Source: Acutalibacter muris (lineage in GTDB: Bacteria; Bacillota; Clostridia; Oscillospirales; Acutalibacteraceae). Taken from it: a DNA stretch of 64,000 nucleotides. The notes beneath the pieces were generated by a model, which was given only the letters and a program-made list of their open reading frames with translations, was not told the DNA's origin and made no database searches. Numbering within the stretch: the first letter of the stretch is position 1; each line of letters begins with the position of its first letter. Both the position numbers and the translations under genes were made by a program. Positions 544 to 63,259 of the stretch are shown piece by piece. The DNA is taken from assembly GCF_002201475.1 (NCBI RefSeq), contig NZ_CP021422.1, forward strand, positions 2,108,001-2,172,000. Reading direction: 5' to 3'.

Positions 544-569
544 GTACTTCATAGTGATTGTAAAGGTTT

Positions 570-599
570 TCCATTCGTAAGCAGTTTCTTTTGTGCCAT
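570..599 (-). pseudogene. Stump of tRNA-Trp-island tyrosine integrase (first codons only)
   Basis: Read on the minus strand, this encodes MAQKKLLTNGK and then departs into unrelated sequence. The residues and the roughly 70 bp upstream (Shine-Dalgarno and leader) closely match the starts of the intact integrases at 44144 and 59842. The rest of the gene is missing, replaced by the serine recombinase end at 1-543. It marks the left part of another island of the same family. Confidence 0.8.
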
Positions 600-679
600 G
601 CTTGTCAGCCTCCTTTCGTCAACAACACAACATACCACACCTTGTTTCGAAAGTCCACTGACTTTTTTCTTACTTTTTG

Positions 680-1110
680 CTCTGGCATTTCCGGATTTCT
701 AAAGGCCGTATTCTTTGTTTTGCAACGCAAATTTTGAGCCAGGTATCTTGCCCTTACAAAAGTGGGTTCGGGCTACTGCCCGGTAATCGTGCCGTCCGAC
801 AACGTCGGACGAACGCTCTGCCTGCCCTCCCCAAAAGGGGAGGATTTTTGTAGGACATTTACACTTCATTTGCAACCCCTGGAAATTCCTCGCAATACCG
901 CCGTTTTTCGCGACAGCAACCCCACCTTTCACTCCAAATCCGCATTAGCAACCCCTATCGTGATTTTGCACTAAGAATCCTGGAATCCCTTGAAACGACC
1001 GGCGTTGCCGGGCGTTGTGAATCGAGTAGGGGACGCACCGCGACCCCTACTCTTTCTCCTGCTTGAAAATCGGACGACTGCGAATCTGTGCTATTTGTGC
1101 AGGATATTGG
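680..1110. other. Conserved hairpin-rich non-coding module, copy A
   Basis: No convincing gene. The segment starts with the block that precedes every island integrase here (GTATTCTTTGTT, then GCAAATTTTGAGC) and carries the same ordered hairpins as copies B, C and D: 769-782 (CGGGC/GCCCG), 793-811 (GTCCGAC/GTCGGAC), 826-843 (CCTCCCC/GGGGAGG), 999-1011 (CCGGC/GCCGG) and 1024-1052 (GAGTAGGGG/CCCCTACTC). The last is followed by a CCTGCTT-GAAAATCG block shared with copy B. The stems differ in sequence from the other copies while remaining paired. About 140 bp between 845 and 985 is unlike the others. Confidence 0.6.
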
Positions 1111-42926: not shown

Positions 42927-44144
42927 TTAAAAATTGAACCCGTCTGTGATCCCCTGTAGGCGGGTTGTGTCTTTCTTGACATAGTACATTTCCGTGATTT
43001 GTGAGGTGCTGTGGCCCAGGAGGTCAGCTACTTGGCGGGGTGAGAGAGCCATCAGCGTTCCGTCCGGCTGGCGGATGCCGTTGACCAGCGAAGACCCGAA
43101 GGTGTGTCTGAAACTGTGGAGGCCCTTCTGCTCTATCCCAGCGGCTTTGAGAATCCGATAGTACCGTTTGCAGAAGTTCACCGGGCGGGTATAGTCGCCC
43201 TTCTCGTCGCTCACGAGGGGCGTTGTGGGGCCGAAATCGCGCTCCTGGCGTAACTTCCTTACCGCCTGCTCCGCGGCCTCATTCAGCGGCACACGGCGTT
43301 TGCTGGTGGCGGTCTTGGTTTTGCCCACCTTCACTTCCCGACCCGGGACGTAGTCTGTTCCCTCCCGCCTACACACCTCTTTCACGTTTTGACGTACTTC
43401 CAAGTACCTGCCCTCCAGATTGATGTCGCTGTTGAGGAGGCCAAGCAGCTCCCCGGTGCGCAGGCCTGTGTTTAGCATGAGGATGTACGCTGCGGGCTGC
43501 TGGTACTTGGGTTTGCCGTTGGAGTAGGTGCTGAACGCCTCAGACTTGAATTTCTCAATTTCTTCTGGCGTGAAAACTGTGACGGTTTCCTGCGTGGGCA
43601 AGTCCTCTTTGTTTTGCGCCGCCATAAAGTTTGACTTCTTTATCGTTGGGACACTGTTCATGGGATTCTTCGCTAGGATTTCCTGCTGGGTTAGGCAACG
43701 GAAATACTCGTTGAGGACGATATACACCTTCTTGACTGTGGTGTAGGCATAGCCCTCACCCATCCAGTGGTTTAGCAATTCCTTGAGGTCTGCGGCGGTA
43801 ATGTCACCTACTACTTTTTCACCGAGCAGAGGAAAAATTTGGTGCTCCACTGTACATTCACAGCGGTCGTAGGTGGTGCGCTCAACCGAGGGAAACTTGA
43901 ATACTTGGAGCCAGTGGGTCATGCTCTCTTTCAAAGTTTTGCGGGATTCATCTGACTCCTGCAAAGCATCGTTAAAGACCGCAACGTAATCGGTCATTTT
44001 CTTGGTAACTTCTGCCTTGGTGGTGCCGGAGAATGATTTACGCTTACGTTCCCCTCTCTCGTCCATGTACCAGACTGTGCCGTCCCAGCGGTCATCGGTT
44101 CTCTTAAAGGCTTTTCCGTTTGTCAACAACTTTTTCTGAGCCAT
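42927..44144 (-). CDS. Tyrosine integrase of island B
   Basis: 405 residues from MAQKKLLTNGK, chosen because AGGGAGGC precedes it. Contains an arm-binding/AP2-like N-terminal part (WDGTVWYMDERGERKRKSF), a SAM-like core-binding domain (MTHWLQVFKFPSVERTTYDR), and a catalytic domain with LNTGLRTGELLGL (Arg), KTATSKRRVPL (Lys), HSFRHTF (His-x-x-Arg) and LGHSTSQITEMYY (His, Tyr). It belongs to the Tn916-type integrases. It is read towards the island's left end, as expected for an integrase next to its att site, and differs from the D copy by scattered substitutions. Confidence 0.93.
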   Translation of the reverse strand: MAQKKLLTNGKAFKRTDDRWDGTVWYMDERGERKRKSFSGTTKAEVTKKMTDYVAVFNDALQESDESRKTLKESMTHWLQVFKFPSVERTTYDRCECTVEHQIFPLLGEKVVGDITAADLKELLNHWMGEGYAYTTVKKVYIVLNEYFRCLTQQEILAKNPMNSVPTIKKSNFMAAQNKEDLPTQETVTVFTPEEIEKFKSEAFSTYSNGKPKYQQPAAYILMLNTGLRTGELLGLLNSDINLEGRYLEVRQNVKEVCRREGTDYVPGREVKVGKTKTATSKRRVPLNEAAEQAVRKLRQERDFGPTTPLVSDEKGDYTRPVNFCKRYYRILKAAGIEQKGLHSFRHTFGSSLVNGIRQPDGTLMALSPRQVADLLGHSTSQITEMYYVKKDTTRLQGITDGFNF

Positions 44145-44239
44145 ATCTGTCAGCCTCCCTTCGTCAACAACACAACATACCACAGCTTACCACGAAAGTC
44201 CACTGACATTTTTCTTACTTTTTGCGTTGTGATTTCAGA

Positions 44240-44610
44240 ATTTCTAAAGGCCGTATTCTTTGTTATGCGGCGCAAATTTTGAGCGCACTATGATGTCCCT
44301 CTATCTCCCCTTCAGGGGCAGGGGGAGAGCCGGGTTTCCCGGCTCCTGCGTCCGGCGTATAGCCGGATGCTATGCTTGCCCTGCCCTGCTTAAAAGCAGG
44401 CTTTTCTTTGCATATTCTTGCTCAAAGCTGCTTCTCATCCACCGACCCCTGATTTCTGAATGTTCTTATCTCTGATTTTGCCCTAACGGTCGGCTCTGCC
44501 GTCCGATGTCACCCGCGCGGTAGACCCCGCGCTTTAACCTGCTTGAAAATCGACACTCTGGAATCTATGCGAATTGTGCAATACGTCAGTGCCTTTACGG
44601 TGTATAATCC
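44240..44610. other. Conserved hairpin-rich non-coding module, copy B
   Basis: Ordered hairpins: 44327-44345 (GAGCCGGG/CCCGGCTC), 44351-44367 (TCCGGC/GCCGGA, loop GTATA), 44385-44400 (CCTGCT/AGCAGG), 44487-44505 (CGG-CGGC/GCCG-CCG) and 44515-44532 (GCGCGG/CCGCGC), then the CCTGCTTGAAAATCG block. It lies between the integrase and the first cargo promoter. No gene is seen from 44145 to 44943. Confidence 0.65.
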
Positions 44611-49002: not shown

Positions 49003-49304
49003 GAGTATTGGAAGAGACAGGATGCAAATGTTTTGCAGAGTGCTTTTCTTTAGTTCAGCGGCGAAAAATTTGAGGAGAATTCTGACCTGACAAAGTTTTA
49101 TTTCTATGTTACTATTGCAACGTTGGAGGCCTTTTTTATAATCTCTTTCCCTGATGGTGTGAAAATTCTCTAATTTCTGGGCTTAAAATTTCGAATAGCA
49201 TCAATAAATCATCAAAACTTTTTGGAGTGTGCGGCTTAGAAACACAAACGGCTCAACCGTGCGGAAAACTGGCTGCTATATGCCCGCCCATGCTTTTTCC
49301 ACAT

Positions 49305-49352
49305 CCACTCCAAAACCGCGTGTCGGTGGGGCGAATCCTTCTGCCCCTGCCA
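49305..49352 (+). repeat. att core 2: tRNA-Trp 3' half (boundary of islands B and C)
   Basis: CTCCAAAACCGCGTG then a drifted T-arm (GTGGGGCGAATCC) and CTTCTGCCCCTGCCA. Left arm-type site CATCAATAAATCATCAAAA at 49199-49217, right site at 49524-49542. Followed by two hairpins, AGACTTG/CAAGTCT and the conserved CCCGGAAT/AATTCCGGG (49383-49407) with T-run. The T-arm is altered from the functional tRNA form, so it could not itself rebuild a normal tRNA. Confidence 0.8.
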
Positions 49353-50045
49353 AAGACTTGTCTGGCGGCAAGTCTCACTTGGCCCGGAATCCCTTGGAAT
49401 TCCGGGCTTTTCTCGTGTTTTGGGGTGGTGGGGTGCGGTCTGGCGTGCTGCTCTCTTTTGCGTATATCTTGTTGCTTTTTCGCATCTGGTCGTATCCGTT
49501 TCTAACCCTTCCGTCTGGCACAGCATCAATAAATCATCAAAAATCCGGGGCGCTCTCCCTTGTGCCGCCTTGCTCTCGCTAAAAATTGAACCCGTCTGTG
49601 ATTCCTTGCAGGCGGGTCGTGTCTTTTTTGACGTAGTACATCTCGGTTATCTGCGAGGTGCTGTGGCCCAACAAGTCGGCTACCTGGCGAGGTGATAAGG
49701 CGAGAATCGTGCCATCTGGCTGTTTCACGCCATTTATAAGCTGTGTGGCAAAATGGTGTCTGAGGCTGTGGAGGCCCTTCTGCTCTATCCTTGCGGCTTT
49801 CAAAATTCTGTAGTACCTCTCGCGGAAATTGACCGGCCTGGTGTAGTCGCCATTCTCGTTGCTCACAAGGGGCGCTGTGGGGCCGAAATCGCATTCCTGG
49901 CGTAACTCCTCTATCGTGGCTATAGCTGCCCCATTCAGGGGCACACGGTGCTTACTGGTGGCTGTTTTGGCCTTGCCTACTTTCACTTCCCGCCCCGGAA
50001 CGTATCCCGTCCCCTCACGCCTACACACCTCTTTCACGTTCTGGC
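49305..50045. repeat. Near-identical direct repeat with 63260-64000
   Basis: The att core, terminator hairpins, arm site and first 460 bp of the integrase (3' part) reappear at 63260-64000 with only a handful of base differences, including one base deletion. The repeat continues beyond the right window edge. It implies recent duplication or exchange between islands C and E. Confidence 0.85.
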
Positions 50046-50490
50046 GTACCTCCAGGTATTTGCCTTCCAGGTTGATATCGCTGTTGAGAAGGCACAGCAG
50101 TTCACCTGTCCTAAGCCCTGTGTTCAGCATGAGAATGTAGGCTGCTGGCTGTTGGTACTTAGGCTTTCCATTGCTGAATCGGCTGAATGCCTCAGTTTTG
50201 AATTTTTCTATTTCCTCCGGCGTGAATATTGTTACGGTTTCCTGGGTAGGTAAATCCTCTTTGTTCTGCGCTGCCATGTAATTGGACTTCTTTATCATGG
50301 GTACACTATTCATAGGGTTCTTGGAGAGAATTTCTTGCTGGGTCAGGTAGCGGAAATATTCTTTGAGGACGATGTAAACTTTCTTCACCGTGGTGTAGGC
50401 GTAGTCCTCATTCATCCAGTGGTTCAGCACTTCTTTGAGGTCAGCTGCGGTGATGTCACCTACCACCTTATCTCCCAGCAGAGGAAAACC
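49579..50490 (-). pseudogene. Tyrosine integrase of island C, N-terminus deleted
   Basis: Frame begins within FPLLGDKVVGDITAADLKEV, so about 125 N-terminal residues (arm-binding and part of the core-binding domain) are lost. The catalytic residues remain: LNTGLRTGELLCL, KTATSKHRVPL, HSLRHHF and LGHSTSQITEMYY. The 5' end is joined directly to module C at about 50490; start codon and ribosome site are missing. Unlikely to recombine alone; the intact integrases of B or D could act in trans because the att sites are shared. Confidence 0.88.
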
Positions 50491-50900
50491 CGTATTCTTT
50501 GTTTAGCGGTGCAAATTTTGAGCCGCGCGCTCGCCTGTAAAAGTGGGTCCGGGCTACTGCCCGGTTCATGTGCCGTCCGACAACGTAGGACGAGTGCTCT
50601 GCTTGCCCTGCCCCATGGATAGGGTTTCTCGCGCATATACTTGCACTTCCTCTCGCATAATTGTGTCTTCTTGACCGACCCTGATTTTCAGAAAGTAAAA
50701 TACCTTATTTTGCCCCCACGGTCGGCTCTGCCGTCCGATGTTACCCGCGCGGTAGGTCTCACCTGTCGGTTCGGTCGGCGCTTGACGGTCCCCACTGGGG
50801 ACCAGCGCCCCGCGCTTTAACCTGCTTGTCTTTCTGACTGTTTTCTGCACCCTTTGAGGCTGGATAATCTTTCATAGACCTGCATACCTGCTCTTTATCT
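50490..50900. other. Conserved hairpin-rich non-coding module, copy C
   Basis: Starts GTATTCTTTGTTT, then hairpins 50549-50564 (CCGGGC/GCCCGG), 50574-50592 (CGTCC/GGACG), 50719-50737 (CGG-CGGC/GCCG-CCG) and 50747-50815 (GCGCGG/CCGCGC). In the last, the loop holds an extra hairpin GGTCCCC/GGGGACC (50787-50803) absent from B and D. The third hairpin is weakened (CCTGCC..GGATAGG). From 50900 to 51118 nothing is recognised. Confidence 0.65.
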
Positions 50901-51118
50901 GGCCTGGTAGCTGTCCCCTCACAAACCGCCACAAATGTCCCAACACGGTGCTTTTGTTCGTTGTCGGTCAACTCCCTACCACTGCCTCAAATCGCCTAAC
51001 AGCGCCTTCACACGGCTCAACAGCCCACTGTTCACTTTTCCTCTGCGCCAAAAATTCAAATTCAGTAAAAGTTCGATAGTCACAGCTTTTGGCGCGGTCC
51101 TGGATATCTCCTCCCCCG

Positions 51119-58174: not shown

Positions 58175-58369
58175 CACTTTATTCTAATTTCCGCTTTTCT
58201 ATGTTTAGCGGTGCAAATTTTGGCTGTGGAACTCATTCCTTGGGGCTTGAGATTTTCGGATATCATCAATAAAGCATCAAAACTTCTCGGAACGAAAATC
58301 GAAGAAACACAAACGGCTCAACCGCGCGGAAAACTGACTGCCATATGTTCGCTGATGTCTTTTCCACAT

Positions 58370-58624: not shown

Positions 58625-59842
58625 CTAAAAATTGAATCCGTCTGTTATTCCTTGTAGGCGGGTGGTGTCTTTTTTGACGTAGTACATCTCGGTGATTTGC
58701 GAGGTGCTGTGGCCCAGGAGGTCGGCCACCTGCCGGGGCGAGAGTGCTTTGATGGTGCCGTCGGGCTGTTTCACGCCGTTTATCAGTTGGGTCGCAAAAT
58801 GATGTCTTAAACTGTGCAATCCTTTCTGATCTATGCCCGCTGCTTTCAAAATCCGGTAGTACCTCTTGCGGAAGTTCACCGGCCTGGTGTAGCCGCCCTT
58901 CTCGTCGCTCACGAGGGGGGCTGTGGGGCCGAAGTCGCGTTCTTGGCGCAACTCCCTTACCGCCTGCACTGCGGCCTGATTCAGGGGCACACGGCGTTTG
59001 CTGGTGGCGGTCTTTGTTTTGCCCACCTTCACTTCCCGGCCCGGGACGTAGTCTGTTCCATCGCGCCTACAAACTTCCTTTACGTTTTGGTGCACCTCAA
59101 GATATTTATGCTCCAGGTCAATGTCGCTGTTGAGCAGGCCAAGCAGTTCCCCGGTACGCAGGCCGGTGTTCAGCATGAGGATGTAGGCCGCTGGCTGCTG
59201 GTATTTCGGCTTGCCGTTACTGAATTTACTGAACGCCTCAGCCTTGAATTTCTCTATTTCCTCTGGCGTGAACACTGTGACCGTTTCCTGTGTGGGCAGG
59301 TCTTCTTTGTTCTGCGCAGCCATGAAGTTTGACTTCTTTATCATGGGTACGCTGTTCATAGGGTTCTTTTGCAGGATTTCTTGCTGAGCCAGGTAGCGGA
59401 AATACTCGTTGAGGACGATGTACACTTTTTTGACTGTGGTGTAGGCGTAGCCCTCGCCCATCCAGTGGTTCAAAACTTCCTTGAGGTCGGCTGCGGTGAT
59501 GTCGCCTACCACCTTTTCTCCGAGCAGAGGGAAAATCTGATGCTCCACTGTACATTCGCAACGGTCGTAGGTCGTGCGCTCCACTGAGGGAAATTTGAAC
59601 ACTTGGAGCCAGTGGGTCATGCTCTCCTTGAGTGTCTTGTGGGATTCATCGGACTCCTGCAATTCTTCGTTAAAGGCCGCAACGTAGTCGGTCATCTTCT
59701 TAGTGACTTCCACCTTGGTGGTCCCGGAGAAGGATTTGCGCTTGCGCTCTCCTCGCTCATCCATGTACCAAACTGTACCACCCCAACGGTCATCCGTTCG
59801 CTTAAAGGCCTTTCCATTTGTGAGCAGTTTCTTTTGTGCCAT
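58625..59842 (-). CDS. Tyrosine integrase of island D
   Basis: 405 residues from MAQKKLLTNGK after AAAGGAGGCTGACAAGC. Same domains as the island B enzyme: arm-binding start (WGGTVWYMDERGERKRKSF), core-binding domain, catalytic Arg (LNTGLRTGELLGL), Lys (KTATSKRRVPL), HSLRHHF and LGHSTSQITEMYY. Intact and next to the best-preserved core, so island D is the member most likely to move. Reads leftwards to its att site. Confidence 0.94.
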   Translation of the reverse strand: MAQKKLLTNGKAFKRTDDRWGGTVWYMDERGERKRKSFSGTTKVEVTKKMTDYVAAFNEELQESDESHKTLKESMTHWLQVFKFPSVERTTYDRCECTVEHQIFPLLGEKVVGDITAADLKEVLNHWMGEGYAYTTVKKVYIVLNEYFRYLAQQEILQKNPMNSVPMIKKSNFMAAQNKEDLPTQETVTVFTPEEIEKFKAEAFSKFSNGKPKYQQPAAYILMLNTGLRTGELLGLLNSDIDLEHKYLEVHQNVKEVCRRDGTDYVPGREVKVGKTKTATSKRRVPLNQAAVQAVRELRQERDFGPTAPLVSDEKGGYTRPVNFRKRYYRILKAAGIDQKGLHSLRHHFATQLINGVKQPDGTIKALSPRQVADLLGHSTSQITEMYYVKKDTTRLQGITDGFNF

Positions 59843-59929
59843 GCTTGTCAGCCTCCTTTCGTCAACAACACAACATACCACACCTTGCCGCGAAAGTCTA
59901 CTAACATTTTTCTTACTTTTTCTGCCCTC

Positions 59930-60300
59930 CCGAAAAAGCTCTTTCTTTGTTTATGCGGCGCAAATTTTGAGCGCCGAGCAAAGCCATTCCAACTCCCCTT
60001 TAGGGGGCAGGGGGAGAGCCGGGAACTCCCGGCTCATGCGGACGGCGTATAGCCGGACGCTATGCTTGCCCTGCCCCATGGGCAGGCTTTCTCGTGCATA
60101 TACTTGCACTTCCTCTCGCATAACTGCGTCTTCTTGACCGACCCCTGATTTTCAGAAAGAAAAATCTCTTAGTTTGTCCTAACGGTCGGCTCTGCCGCCC
60201 GATGTCACCTGCGCGGTATACCCCGCGCTTTAACCTGCTTGTCTTTTTGACCGTTTCCTGCGCCTTTTGAGGCTGGATAATCTTTCATAGTCCTGCATAT
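59930..60300. other. Conserved hairpin-rich non-coding module, copy D
   Basis: Hairpins in order: 60016-60035 (GAGCCGGG/CCCGGCTC), 60038-60060 (GCG..CGGC/GCCG..CGC, loop GTATA), 60070-60086 (CCTGCCC/GGGCAGG), 60183-60201 (CGG-CGGC/GCCG-CCG) and 60211-60228 (GCGCGG/CCGCGC), then TTTAACCTGCTTGTC. Positioned between the integrase start and the BlaI operators. No gene. Confidence 0.65.
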
Positions 60301-60444: not shown

Positions 60445-60810
60445 ATGCCAATCAAGCTATTCGACTCCGAACTGAAAGTCATGAACGTCCTCTGGCGCGG
60501 CGGCGACCACACCGCCAAGGAAATTTCCGACATCCTTAAGGCCGAGACCAACTGGAACATGAACACCACCTATACCGTCATCAAAAAGTGTATCGCCAAG
60601 GGGGCTATCGAGCGCAGTGAGCCTGGCTTTCTCTGTCACGCCCTCATTCCAAAGGAATCCGTGCAGGAGGCCGAGACCGACGAGCTCATAGGCAAGCTGT
60701 ACGACGGCTCGGTGGATAAGCTGTTCGCCGCGCTGCTGGGGCGCAAAAAGCTCTCGGCGGAGCAAATTAACCGGCTGAAACAGATGGTTGAGGGCGAGGT
60801 GGAGAAATGA
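60445..60810 (+). CDS. BlaI/MecI/CopY-family repressor
   Basis: 121 residues: LFDSELKVMNVLWRGGDHTA, KEISDILKAETNWNMNTTYT, VIKKCIAKGAIERSEPGF, a winged helix with the N-x-x-T-x-x-T-x-x-K recognition helix; helical dimerisation tail LFAALLGRKKLSAEQINRLK. The first line of residues also marks the start after AAAGGACCG. In BlaI systems the linked peptidase sensor leads to cleavage of the repressor. Its stop overlaps the sensor start (ATGA). Likely binds the three operators upstream. Confidence 0.9.
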   Translation: MPIKLFDSELKVMNVLWRGGDHTAKEISDILKAETNWNMNTTYTVIKKCIAKGAIERSEPGFLCHALIPKESVQEAETDELIGKLYDGSVDKLFAALLGRKKLSAEQINRLKQMVEGEVEK

Positions 60811-63125
60811 GCCTCCTGCAAATGAGCCTGTCCGGCGCGGCCATGATTTTGGCGATCCTGCTGGTCCGAACGCTGGCTCTACAACGGCTACCCAAGCGGC
60901 TATTCCCGGCGCTGTGGTGGCTGGTGCTGATCCGCCTGCTGGTACCATTTTCCCTGCCCGCGCCGTGCAGTGTGTACTCGCTTTTGAGCCGCCCCGTGCC
61001 GGTTGCGGTACACCAGCCCGGGCCAGTAATAGCGCCCCTCTCCCCTTCCGCTTGGGCGGGCGAAGCCACCGGAACGCCTACTGCTGTGGGCGGCGCTGCC
61101 GCAAGCGTTGACCCCTGGGTCGCGCTCTGGCTGGCAGGATTCTTGGTATGCTCCTGGTACTTTATGGCAGTCTATGTAAAATGCCGTCGGGAGTTCCGGG
61201 AGGCACTGCCTGTTCACAACGACTATGTGAGTGTGTGGCTCAAGGAGCATAGGCTTCGCCGCCCGGTCACCGTCCGGCAGTCGGACAGAATAGCCGCACC
61301 GCTGACCTACGGTATCCTGCGCCCGGTGATACTCCTGCCCAAGTCAACGGACTGGGACGACAGGGAAACTTTAGGCTGCGTGCTGGCCCACGAGTGGGCG
61401 CATATCTGGCGGTTTGACGGACTTTTGAAGCTGGCGCTGGCTGCCGCGTTCTGCGTCCACTGGTTCAACCCGCTGGTCTGGGTCATGCTGTTCTTTGCCA
61501 ACCTGGACATCGAGTTGGCCTGCGATGAAGCGGTACTCCAGCAACTGGGACAGGACATGAGGTCCGGGTACGCCATGGCGCTTATCCGCATGGAGGAGCG
61601 CAGAGGCGGGCCGCCCCTGATAGGAAATTATTTCAGCAAAGCTCCTATTGAAGAAAGGATAAAATCAATTATGACTATTAAACGGAAATCTATGATTGCG
61701 CTGGCTCTATCCATCTGCCTAATAGGCGGTACAGCGACAGTTTTTGCCACCTCCGCCAGCGCGGATAACAACAATAATGATGCATCCCAAACCAGCTATG
61801 TGGTGGAAAACAAAGATGCCGCCCTGGTTTCCTATACCGATGAAAACGGCACCACCTACTACAGCTTCGATGACGGCGAGACCTGGACCGCCATGACCGA
61901 CGAGGAGTTCGCCGCAGCATACCCCGAGCCGGAGGTCGAGTGGTGGACTGCCGCAGAATACGCCGCATGGTTAGAGAACGAGAAAAGGGATTTGCAGGAT
62001 ATGATCGGCTCAAAAGGTTGGACACAAAGCACCGGCTGGTTCACTTGGACCCAGGAGATGGTGGACGAGACAATAGCCGAGTACGAGGAAATTCTGAACA
62101 TGATTGAGAGCGGCTATCTTGTCTCCAAGACCGTTGACGGAGATGAGAACACCATGCTGGTAATGAATCCCCTTGACCGGGTGGTTGGCAGCGCGGACTG
62201 GGAGAACGCCATAGAGGCAAAAGAGCAGTCCGATTTTTACGATGATACTTTCGACTACACGAGCCTTTTCGACGACTACAAGAGCTGCGGGCTTACCTTC
62301 CAGAACAGCGACGGCAACCTGTACTGGAACGGCCAGCGGGTGCGCATCTTTGTGGACGGCGCGGAGCATGAGGGCGGATGGGTTTCTCAGTATGAGCATT
62401 ACGACCCGGAGGGCAGTATTGATGTTCGGACCGTCCGGGAGCGGGTGGATAACGGCGACGGCAGCTACAACCTGATGGGGCCCCTGGTGCGGCTGGAGGA
62501 GTTTGAGCCTGAGCAGATGTTTTTGGATGCCCTGGAGGGCCAGCGGTATGTGGGTGCTGAATTCCAGTACGAGGCTGAGCGCACTGCCCAGGAGCTGAAG
62601 CGGTACGAAAAGTTTGGACTGACCTTTGATTCGAATGCCAACAGCCCAACAGGCAGCCTCTCCATGAGCTGGAACGGCCAGCCGGTGCGCAGCCTGTTCG
62701 ACCCGGAACGCCAGCTGTGGGTGTGCAACAGCCTGGGTACGAAGGGCCTGGACCTGGAGGCCGTCTATGAGAATGGCGAGCTCACCGGCCTGCGGGAAAG
62801 CGCGGAGGATAAAAGTTTCGTGGAGAGCGGGACGGTCATAAACGCTGACGCCACAGCTACTGAAGGTACTGGCGACAACTCCGGGGAGACCATTGCGGAG
62901 CGTATGGAGAAGTATGCGCCCTATGGGGTGAGCTATCAGGAGAAGGGCGGCAAGAGGAGCATACGGTATGAAGGCAAGGCTGTAGACAGCTTTACGGACA
63001 TGAGGCCGGGAGGTGGTGTGTTCTCTGTTAAGTCTACGGATGGCGGGGAGATCGCTCTGGTTACGGTTTATGATGGGGATGGGAAGCTAAAGGGAGTTAA
63101 AGCTATGCTGTCGTATCGTTTTTAA
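60807..63125 (+). CDS. BlaR1-like M56 metallopeptidase sensor with novel extracellular domain
   Basis: 772 residues. N-terminal M56 part with helices near 9-25, 33-50, 103-125 and 205-230; zinc site HEWAH at 195-199 and downstream Glu236/Asp240 in DIELACDEAV. A further helix (MIALALSICLIGGTATVFA) at about 290-310 is followed by some 460 extracellular residues, acidic and Trp/Tyr-rich: a YSFDDGETWTAMTDEEF repeat-like start and three units with the pattern Y-x-(S/K)-(C/F)-G-(L/V)-(T/S)-(F/Y) ... WNGQ(R/P)VR. No penicillin-binding SxxK/KTG motif is seen, so it does not look like a beta-lactam sensor. No beta-lactamase gene is linked. The signal is unknown. Confidence 0.88.
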   Translation: MSLLQMSLSGAAMILAILLVRTLALQRLPKRLFPALWWLVLIRLLVPFSLPAPCSVYSLLSRPVPVAVHQPGPVIAPLSPSAWAGEATGTPTAVGGAAASVDPWVALWLAGFLVCSWYFMAVYVKCRREFREALPVHNDYVSVWLKEHRLRRPVTVRQSDRIAAPLTYGILRPVILLPKSTDWDDRETLGCVLAHEWAHIWRFDGLLKLALAAAFCVHWFNPLVWVMLFFANLDIELACDEAVLQQLGQDMRSGYAMALIRMEERRGGPPLIGNYFSKAPIEERIKSIMTIKRKSMIALALSICLIGGTATVFATSASADNNNNDASQTSYVVENKDAALVSYTDENGTTYYSFDDGETWTAMTDEEFAAAYPEPEVEWWTAAEYAAWLENEKRDLQDMIGSKGWTQSTGWFTWTQEMVDETIAEYEEILNMIESGYLVSKTVDGDENTMLVMNPLDRVVGSADWENAIEAKEQSDFYDDTFDYTSLFDDYKSCGLTFQNSDGNLYWNGQRVRIFVDGAEHEGGWVSQYEHYDPEGSIDVRTVRERVDNGDGSYNLMGPLVRLEEFEPEQMFLDALEGQRYVGAEFQYEAERTAQELKRYEKFGLTFDSNANSPTGSLSMSWNGQPVRSLFDPERQLWVCNSLGTKGLDLEAVYENGELTGLRESAEDKSFVESGTVINADATATEGTGDNSGETIAERMEKYAPYGVSYQEKGGKRSIRYEGKAVDSFTDMRPGGGVFSVKSTDGGEIALVTVYDGDGKLKGVKAMLSYRF

Positions 63126-63259
63126 GATTTTGGAGAAGTAAATGGTATGATTTGGAAATGCTTTCTTTGTTTTGCTGCGCAGATTTTGAGGGAGGAATTG
63201 CTGCTTGATACAGCTTGATTTCCATGTTACCATTATAAAACAAATGGCTTTTCCCACAT

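Follow-up and report, generated by a model that had tools for sequence, protein, structure and literature searches.

The stretch of the Acutalibacter muris chromosome analysed here, 64,000 nucleotides long and called the window below, carries four copies of a hairpin-rich module, A (about 709-1070), B (44254-44550), C (50493-50833) and D (59942-60246), all laid out on one common plan: a leftward tyrosine integrase gene, a 30-bp core, hairpins 1-3, a linker, hairpins 4-5 and then other genes, the integrase gene being split in A and truncated in C. A first-pass annotation, made from the sequence alone, had placed these four copies and named their stem sequences, and all of them are present, as is the inner GGTCCCC hairpin that it described in C.

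In B, the att core (the conserved core of tyrosine-integrase sites) occupies 44254-44283 on the + strand, with a weight-matrix score of 51 and 0 control hits in reversed or complemented sequence, and the integrase gene (42927-44183, - strand; PF00589, 2e-17) starts ~70 bp left of the core and reads away from the module. Hairpins 1-3 form unit 1 (44305-44410, +; 78.6 bits with covariance model R2), read below as a putative oriT1 with a predicted nic at 44378|44379 (TATGCTTG|CCC); hairpins 4-5 form unit 2 (44476-44550, +; R1, 82.9 bits), the putative oriT2, with a predicted nic at 44541|44542 (TTTAACCTG|CTTG). D has the same parts, namely a core found by weight matrix at 59942-59971 (+), an integrase at 58625-59881 (-; PF00589, 8e-21), oriT1 at 59995-60100 (+; R2, 94.5 bits; predicted nic 60068|60069) and oriT2 at 60172-60246 (+; R1, 80.0 bits; predicted nic 60237|60238).

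In A, the weight matrix places the core at 709-738 (+), with oriT1 at 751-852 (+; R3, 114 bits; predicted nic 824|825) and oriT2 at 985-1070 (+; R1, 83.5 bits; predicted nic 1061|1062, TTTCTCCTG|CTTG). Between both origins, three direct repeats (A/T)GCAACCCC at 871, 915 and 947 (871-955, +) are possible sites for an accessory protein. Only the first 27 codons of the A integrase stand at the module (558-638, -); a copy of the remainder, codons 21-418, lies ~21 kb leftward, so that the split gene spans window 558-638 and own-genome positions 2086361-2108638. Because a gene for a type IV secretion system (T4SS) coupling protein lies between the two parts, a conjugative element may have inserted into this integrase. 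In C, the core (50493-50522, +; weight matrix) follows a 5'-truncated integrase (49579-50466, -; PF00589, 6e-16) whose alignment starts at residue 113 of a full-length copy; oriT1 (50532-50635, +; R3, 90.5 bits; predicted nic 50605|50606) has a degenerate hairpin 3, and oriT2 (50708-50833, +; R1, 65.8 bits; predicted nic 50824|50825) has its extra hairpin within hairpin 5. A unit 2 elsewhere in the same genome (2037169-2037307) also has an insertion in hairpin 5, with an inner hairpin of different sequence. Across A-D, the predicted nic sites of units 1 and 2 lie 163-237 bp apart on the same strand.

Two separable units that conserve their folds

The hairpin module is two separable units, and a reading as one RNA is rejected. 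A profile of A-D compared with own-genome stretches and 59 public-genome loci gave matches that break at the linker, many places matching the first half alone or the second half alone, and related islands may have either unit by itself or the two together; the initial description, of one module found in all islands, was thus too wide in its scope and merged two things into one. Unit 1 is of the alpha subtype in A and C and of the beta subtype in B and D; the two share a layout but differ in their stems, and T[A/C]TGC[C/T]TG|CCC stands 3' of hairpin 2. In unit 2, TTT[AA/CT]CCTG|CTTG stands 3' of hairpin 5, which is followed by TTTAACCTGCTTG in B, C and D and by TTTCTCCTGCTTG in A.

How freely do the two units combine? 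A motif scan yielded 19 distinct tandem pairs with motifs 138-339 bp apart, distributed as alpha/CTCCTG (8), alpha/AACCTG (5), beta/AACCTG (4) and beta/CTCCTG (2), counts that are not additive with those of the later genome set, with which the motif-scan loci overlap (L066 and L068 are G125:C11, and L107 is G438:C137). With every pairing of the main subtypes represented, each unit seems to be exchanged by recombination independently of the other. Among 394 genomes of the order, unit 2 is present in at least 87 and unit 1 (model R3) in 43; under strict filters, no tandem pair outside our genus and genome G098 was seen by eye among the matches listed. Genome G098 represents a different genus; one of its two tandem pairs lies near a serine recombinase, the other near a phage-type integrase together with a SMODS/AGS_C gene, so that pairing of the units does not depend on any single integrase. 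The SMODS/AGS_C (CD-NTase-like) gene beside a tandem origin pair in this genome (locus L177, 10309-12347) is possibly defence-type cargo of a tandem-oriT island.

Folded as single-stranded DNA, seven of the eight units of A-D outperform dinucleotide shuffles (z -2.8 to -6.4); among the seven is unit 2 of C, which 1 of 200 shuffles equals. Unit 1 of C, with its degenerate hairpin 3, does not outperform them (z -0.51; 60 of 200 shuffles equally good). Covariance models were made for unit 2 (R1), unit 1 beta (R2) and unit 1 alpha (R3), with structures set by the analyst and the unit 1 subtypes aligned separately (alignments A5 for beta and A6 for alpha). In the 29 sequences from which the unit 2 model was built, 86.7% of cells are paired and the covariation score is 0.238, against at most 0.096 when the partners are slid; 0 of 500 shuffles match either the pairing percentage or the covariation score, and shuffles reach the number of pairs changed on both sides in 40 of 500 cases and the number of pair types in 21 of 500.

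The same structures hold in sequences fetched later by the covariance models. The 30 later unit 2 sequences are 90.2% paired, with both-side changes in 15 of 17 pairs, and the 19 distinct later unit 1 sequences are 96.3% paired, with both-side changes in 18 of 25; their covariation scores are 0.502 (slid controls at most 0.107) and 0.393 (at most 0.098), respectively. All figures from the later sequences are biased towards the structure because these sequences were found and aligned by models containing it. For both units, 0 of 500 shuffles reach the observed values on all five measures. The later sets shared 2 of 30 rows (unit 2) and 3 of 25 rows (unit 1) with the building sets; once these rows are removed, 28 unit 2 sequences are 89.7% paired with both-side changes in 14 of 17 pairs, and 17 distinct unit 1 sequences are 96.1% paired with both-side changes in 18 of 25, while slid controls pair at no more than 59.8% and 51.7%. 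In two alpha copies, L107 and L069, hairpin 2 has no left arm. Taken together, the folding z-scores and the compensatory change support the earlier proposal of selection on structure.

Relaxases and nic motifs

Elsewhere, a lone unit 1 stands upstream of a MobA/VirD2-type (PF03432) relaxase operon and a lone unit 2 upstream of a MobL/MobP3 (PF18555) relaxase operon. L032 and similar islands run integrase, core, PF18555 MobL relaxase (7e-27), accessory gene, unit 2; L040 runs integrase, core, PF03432 relaxase (2e-38), unit 1; and at L079, unit 1 is followed by a NikA-like gene (2e-22) and then a PF03432 relaxase. In L046 and others, integrase and core are followed by a ribbon-helix-helix-like gene (weak PF01402, 0.04) and unit 2, with no relaxase seen. 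The same order, with a lone ribbon-helix-helix-like gene and no relaxase match, is found at L056, L059, L061, L086, L097 and L102. A small HTH_36 gene lies 3' of the origins in the relaxase islands L032 (6766-7128), L040 (5822-6211) and L079 (1051-1461).

A survey of 150 genomes of the family (our own and 149 others) gives these associations a scale. Unit 2 has 57 matches, of which 18 are our own, spread over 27 genomes, and MobL (PF18555) has 28, of which 7 are our own, in 21. At 11 of the 21 MobL matches outside our genome, unit 2 lies 447-578 bp upstream on the opposite strand; 1 of the 21 has it at 5 kb and 9 have none near. G082, G103 and G111, with no unit 2 within 1.2 kb of MobL, have far higher PF18555 scores, and their MobL may be another branch. 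For unit 1, R2 has 18 matches in 7 genomes and R3 has 34 in 17, overlapping sets that together make 24 places outside our genome. With the L079 relaxase as query, unit 1 lies 312-509 bp upstream at 10 of the 15 best PF03432 matches outside our genome (E up to 2e-57), is missing at the other 5, and lies 259-403 bp upstream at 5 of 5 such matches within it; the weaker PF03432 matches, among those listed, have no unit 1 near. Seen from the units, a PF18555 match is absent within 1.2 kb of 28 of the 39 unit 2 places outside our genome, and a PF03432 match is absent near 14 of the 24 such unit 1 places, 4 of the 14 being in tandem with unit 2 and two lying less than 500 bp from a contig end. Places without the matching relaxase could be relaxase-less islands, short contigs or homes of other relaxases.

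The relaxase that goes with unit 2 is a MobP3 protein by NCBIfam (346 bits against a cut-off of 150). For the unit 1 relaxase every NCBIfam match falls below the cut-off, and tblastn with it reaches Enterococcus and Staphylococcus plasmids at less than 60% identity; PDB sequence searches with both relaxases returned nothing. A search with the MobL relaxase protein alone returned five plasmid records, two of them from Sulfobacillus, and the best three of the five (from Subdoligranulum, an Oscillospiraceae isolate and Exiguobacterium) were scanned for unit 2: each has one match, upstream, at 37.7, 31.9 and 30.2 bits, respectively. On the Subdoligranulum plasmid unit 2 lies ~1.2 kb upstream of the relaxase match; on the other two, whose relaxases are annotated MobP3, it lies just upstream of the accessory gene, and on that of the Oscillospiraceae isolate (L185) it is on the relaxase strand, unlike the others. 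For unit 1, the Fusobacterium plasmid pFN1 has a weak alpha match (17.5 bits, E 0.001) in the expected place and no match to the beta model. Nucleotide searches with module B found no plasmid and one 4.4-kb scaffold. MT839295.1 (L183), a 4.4-kb human-faecal scaffold, has unit 1 (78.3 bits) at the start of a NikA-like ORF; it also has an integrase-like ORF, and its relaxase and NikA-like ORFs are similar by eye to those of L079. Although filed as 'Bacteriophage sp.', this record looks like a fragment of a mobilisable island rather than a phage.

These associations bear on the roles first suggested for the module. A leader controlling the integrase does not suit the islands in which the relaxase gene sits between the core and integrase on one side and the unit on the other. 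A dedicated non-coding RNA, whether an attenuator or leader or a small RNA ending at hairpin 3, would draw on the terminator-like run of TTTT after hairpin 3 in 15 of 22 copies; the run is missing in the other 7, the units occur apart, each tracking one relaxase family rather than the integrase, and Rfam has no match at gathering score in the window, its three sub-threshold matches at B reaching E 0.71 at best. We regard a structured RNA as highly improbable. The guess of a single-strand origin came closest, in that an origin is what the evidence favours, although it points instead to two nick-type origins of conjugative transfer.

Nick-type origins are common to relaxases and rolling-circle Rep proteins. 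Only one unit, accordingly, might be an oriT, with the other acting as an origin of replication for the freed circle, nick-initiated or for priming of the lagging strand, and the HTH_36 genes of L032, L040 and L079 would suit such a role. Each unit, however, precedes relaxases of its own particular family, and no Rep family appears in the subset of window ORFs scanned with Pfam, which makes this division of labour quite unlikely.

The motifs themselves can be set beside published nic sites. Among the nic sites printed in PMC7755788 are RYGCTTG|C for Tn1549, TGCTTG|CCA for pRJ6 (P7), TATCCTG|C for pMAS2027 (P3) and GCCGG|CTTTT for LS20. The motif of unit 1 in B and D, ATGCTTG|CCC, fits the Tn1549 form, from which C departs by one letter and A by two, so that the predicted nic of unit 1 is of the type described for the Tn1549 oriT (PMC7755788). 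Unit 2 resembles the MOBP site CCTG|C: TTTATCCTGCTT, with the P3 motif TATCCTG|C, stands in 4 of 30 relatives, AACCTG in B, C and D, and CTCCTG in A, the MobP3 of NCBIfam being possibly, but not necessarily, the same branch as the P3 of that table. The oriT of pLS20, a MOBL system, is like unit 2 in going with a Pfam MobL relaxase, and its nic as mapped in PMC5313138, GCCGG|CTTTT, is unlike that of unit 2.

Close matches to these nic regions lie in relaxase-bearing elements of the same chromosome, three with PF03432 and three with MobP3 in the set compared. The unit 1 nic region of B shares 41 of 42 bases with a PF03432 element at 2.034 Mb, and its unit 2 nic region 31 of 31 with MobP3 islands at 1.876 and 1.906 Mb; D shares 39 of 42 and 30 of 31 with such elements. 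Against the best relaxase-bearing copies, A reaches 40 of 42 (unit 1) and 20 of 31 (unit 2), and C 40 of 42 and 23 of 31, the extra hairpin of C falling inside the 31 bases compared. Could the units nevertheless be relics, decaying and unused since ancestral islands lost their own relaxases? The broken hairpin 3 and truncated integrase of C, and the missing hairpin arms of L107 and L069, would fit such decay. Yet compensatory change keeps the structures, the aligned nic motifs hardly vary, B all but matches copies that accompany a relaxase elsewhere in this genome, G098, of another genus, has the pair near other recombinases, and C is 98.6% identical over 1616 bp to its neighbour, island E, which suggests recent movement or duplication. 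We consider the relic reading unlikely.

Integrase islands and their cores

The att core was defined from 99 flanked copies, and its conservation ends sharply on both sides. We read it as an integrase att core because its flanks are unrelated between places and because it brackets cargo. Scanned over 460 kb of the own chromosome, the weight matrix gives 40 sites, against none in the reversed or complemented controls; a genome-wide pattern search allowing up to 3 mismatches finds 22, all at 1.86-2.43 Mb, with 0 control matches. In the window, cores start at 709, 1738, 44254, 49045, 50493, 58195, 59942 and 63161, those at the right ends of the B, C and D cargoes, all on the + strand, spanning 49045-49074 (weak, score 23), 58195-58224 (score 37) and 63161-63190 (score 43). 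As cargo, B and C have two-component systems, and D (60445-63125) has a BlaR1-like M56 protein along with a BlaI/MecI-like repressor. Islands C and E have 1616 bp in common (window 49292-50907 and own genome 2171247-2172861), with integrase, core and both origins, before their cargoes diverge.

More broadly, some 40 shared att cores form an array at 1.71-2.43 Mb of the own genome, along with several integrase subfamilies and different cargoes, the more distant integrases being ~27-33% identical to those of the window. The integrase genes themselves lie between two cores, with cores also on the integrase's far side. The cores are all on the + strand at 1.86-2.18 Mb and, in three stretches scanned within 2.27-2.44 Mb, all but one on the - strand. 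A replication-linked single-strand process, suggested by this orientation, was rejected, the GC skew terminus not coinciding with the strand switch.

The contact between module and core, and the setting of the islands within a core array, might suggest that the hairpins are a folded single-strand recombination site for the integrase, like the attC of integrons. Some units, though, lie at a distance of 0.5, 1.8 or 6 kb from a core or have no core next to them, and of the 40 cores only about 9 directly adjoin a unit. An integron cassette array, in which a folded site is expected at each core, was rejected on the same count, and we hold an attC-like role for the hairpins to be the most improbable of the readings considered here.

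Are the islands equipped to transfer themselves? In whole-genome scans, neither PF18555 nor PF03432 has a match in the window. At 12 of 12 related loci with core and tandem, no MobL/MOBP match lies within up to 8 kb, and the 20-kb stretches round the tandem pairs of G125, G098 and G438 have none.

Proposed mobilisation in trans

We propose, with a probability of about 0.86, that the module is a same-strand tandem oriT for two relaxase families, carried at the left end of integrase islands that encode neither relaxase and are mobilised in trans. Unit 1 would be the oriT of a PF03432 relaxosome, Tn1549/pRJ6-like, in the order hairpin 2, nic TGCTTG|CCC, hairpin 3, and unit 2 that of a MobL/MobP3 relaxosome, with hairpins 4 and 5 followed by the nic CCTG|CTTG. 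The island integrase would recombine the cores and release a free circle; a PF03432 or MobP3 relaxase from another element would nick the + strand at its own site and stay on the 5' end; the nicked strand would leave through a helper type IV secretion system, cargo first and integrase last; and in the recipient the circle would integrate at a core. From the sequence we infer the nicking, the excision, the mobilisation in trans and the benefit of having two oriTs.

Why carry two origins? We lean slightly towards the view that two interchangeable oriT cassettes make up a compound, relaxase-agnostic port, swapped independently between islands, which would widen the range of helpers and avoid the deletions that arise between same-family origins on one strand. 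Because nic motifs and relaxases differ between the units, the same-strand tandem should be stable.

ICEclc encodes its own transfer genes and is conjugative, unlike the islands described here. It resembles them in having two oriTs within one integrated element (the dual oriT named in PMC11448139). The plasmid pEC156, mobilised by F and R64 via two oriTs (PMC4743918), likewise serves different relaxases from one element, though it is an enterobacterial plasmid rather than an integrase island. Staphylococcal plasmids can carry several oriTs of the pWBG749 family, those with two having them on opposite strands, a placement that the authors link to relaxase-mediated deletion (PMC4652767); as here, several oriTs lie on a relaxase-less element with hairpins beside a short core, but the staphylococcal oriTs are subtypes for one relaxase family on opposite strands, whereas the islands combine two families on the same strand. 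Also related are oriT-only integrative mobilisable elements, or IMEs ('iOriT'), among them the Vibrio MGIs that an SXT-family ICE mobilises (PMC5704250, PMC11389934), which likewise have an integrase, no relaxase found and an oriT resembling that of another element; the present islands differ in having two adjacent oriTs for two relaxase families and in being short, arrayed on one att core and found in Oscillospiraceae. IMEs with an oriT alone and IMEs with an oriT and an accessory factor have both been reviewed (PMC5704250), and by analogy the first class would fit the tandem islands and the second the islands with a lone ribbon-helix-helix-like gene. In the openly licensed literature we found no report of a two-family tandem oriT on integrase islands, and a literature search for a MobP3 oriT in Firmicutes found no paper.

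The covariance models offer a searchable description of putative oriTs for two relaxase families in gut Clostridia, by which chromosomal islands without a relaxase become recognisable as probably mobile. Who moves these islands? The question now leads to two named kinds of prospective helper, both encoded in the same chromosome. A helper ICE was looked for at 3.08-3.13 Mb without success: 10 ORFs scanned there had no T4SS family, and the region had no PF02534 match. At 2.53 Mb, a MobP3 relaxase and a T4SS coupling protein are encoded near a unit 2, and this element is a candidate helper.
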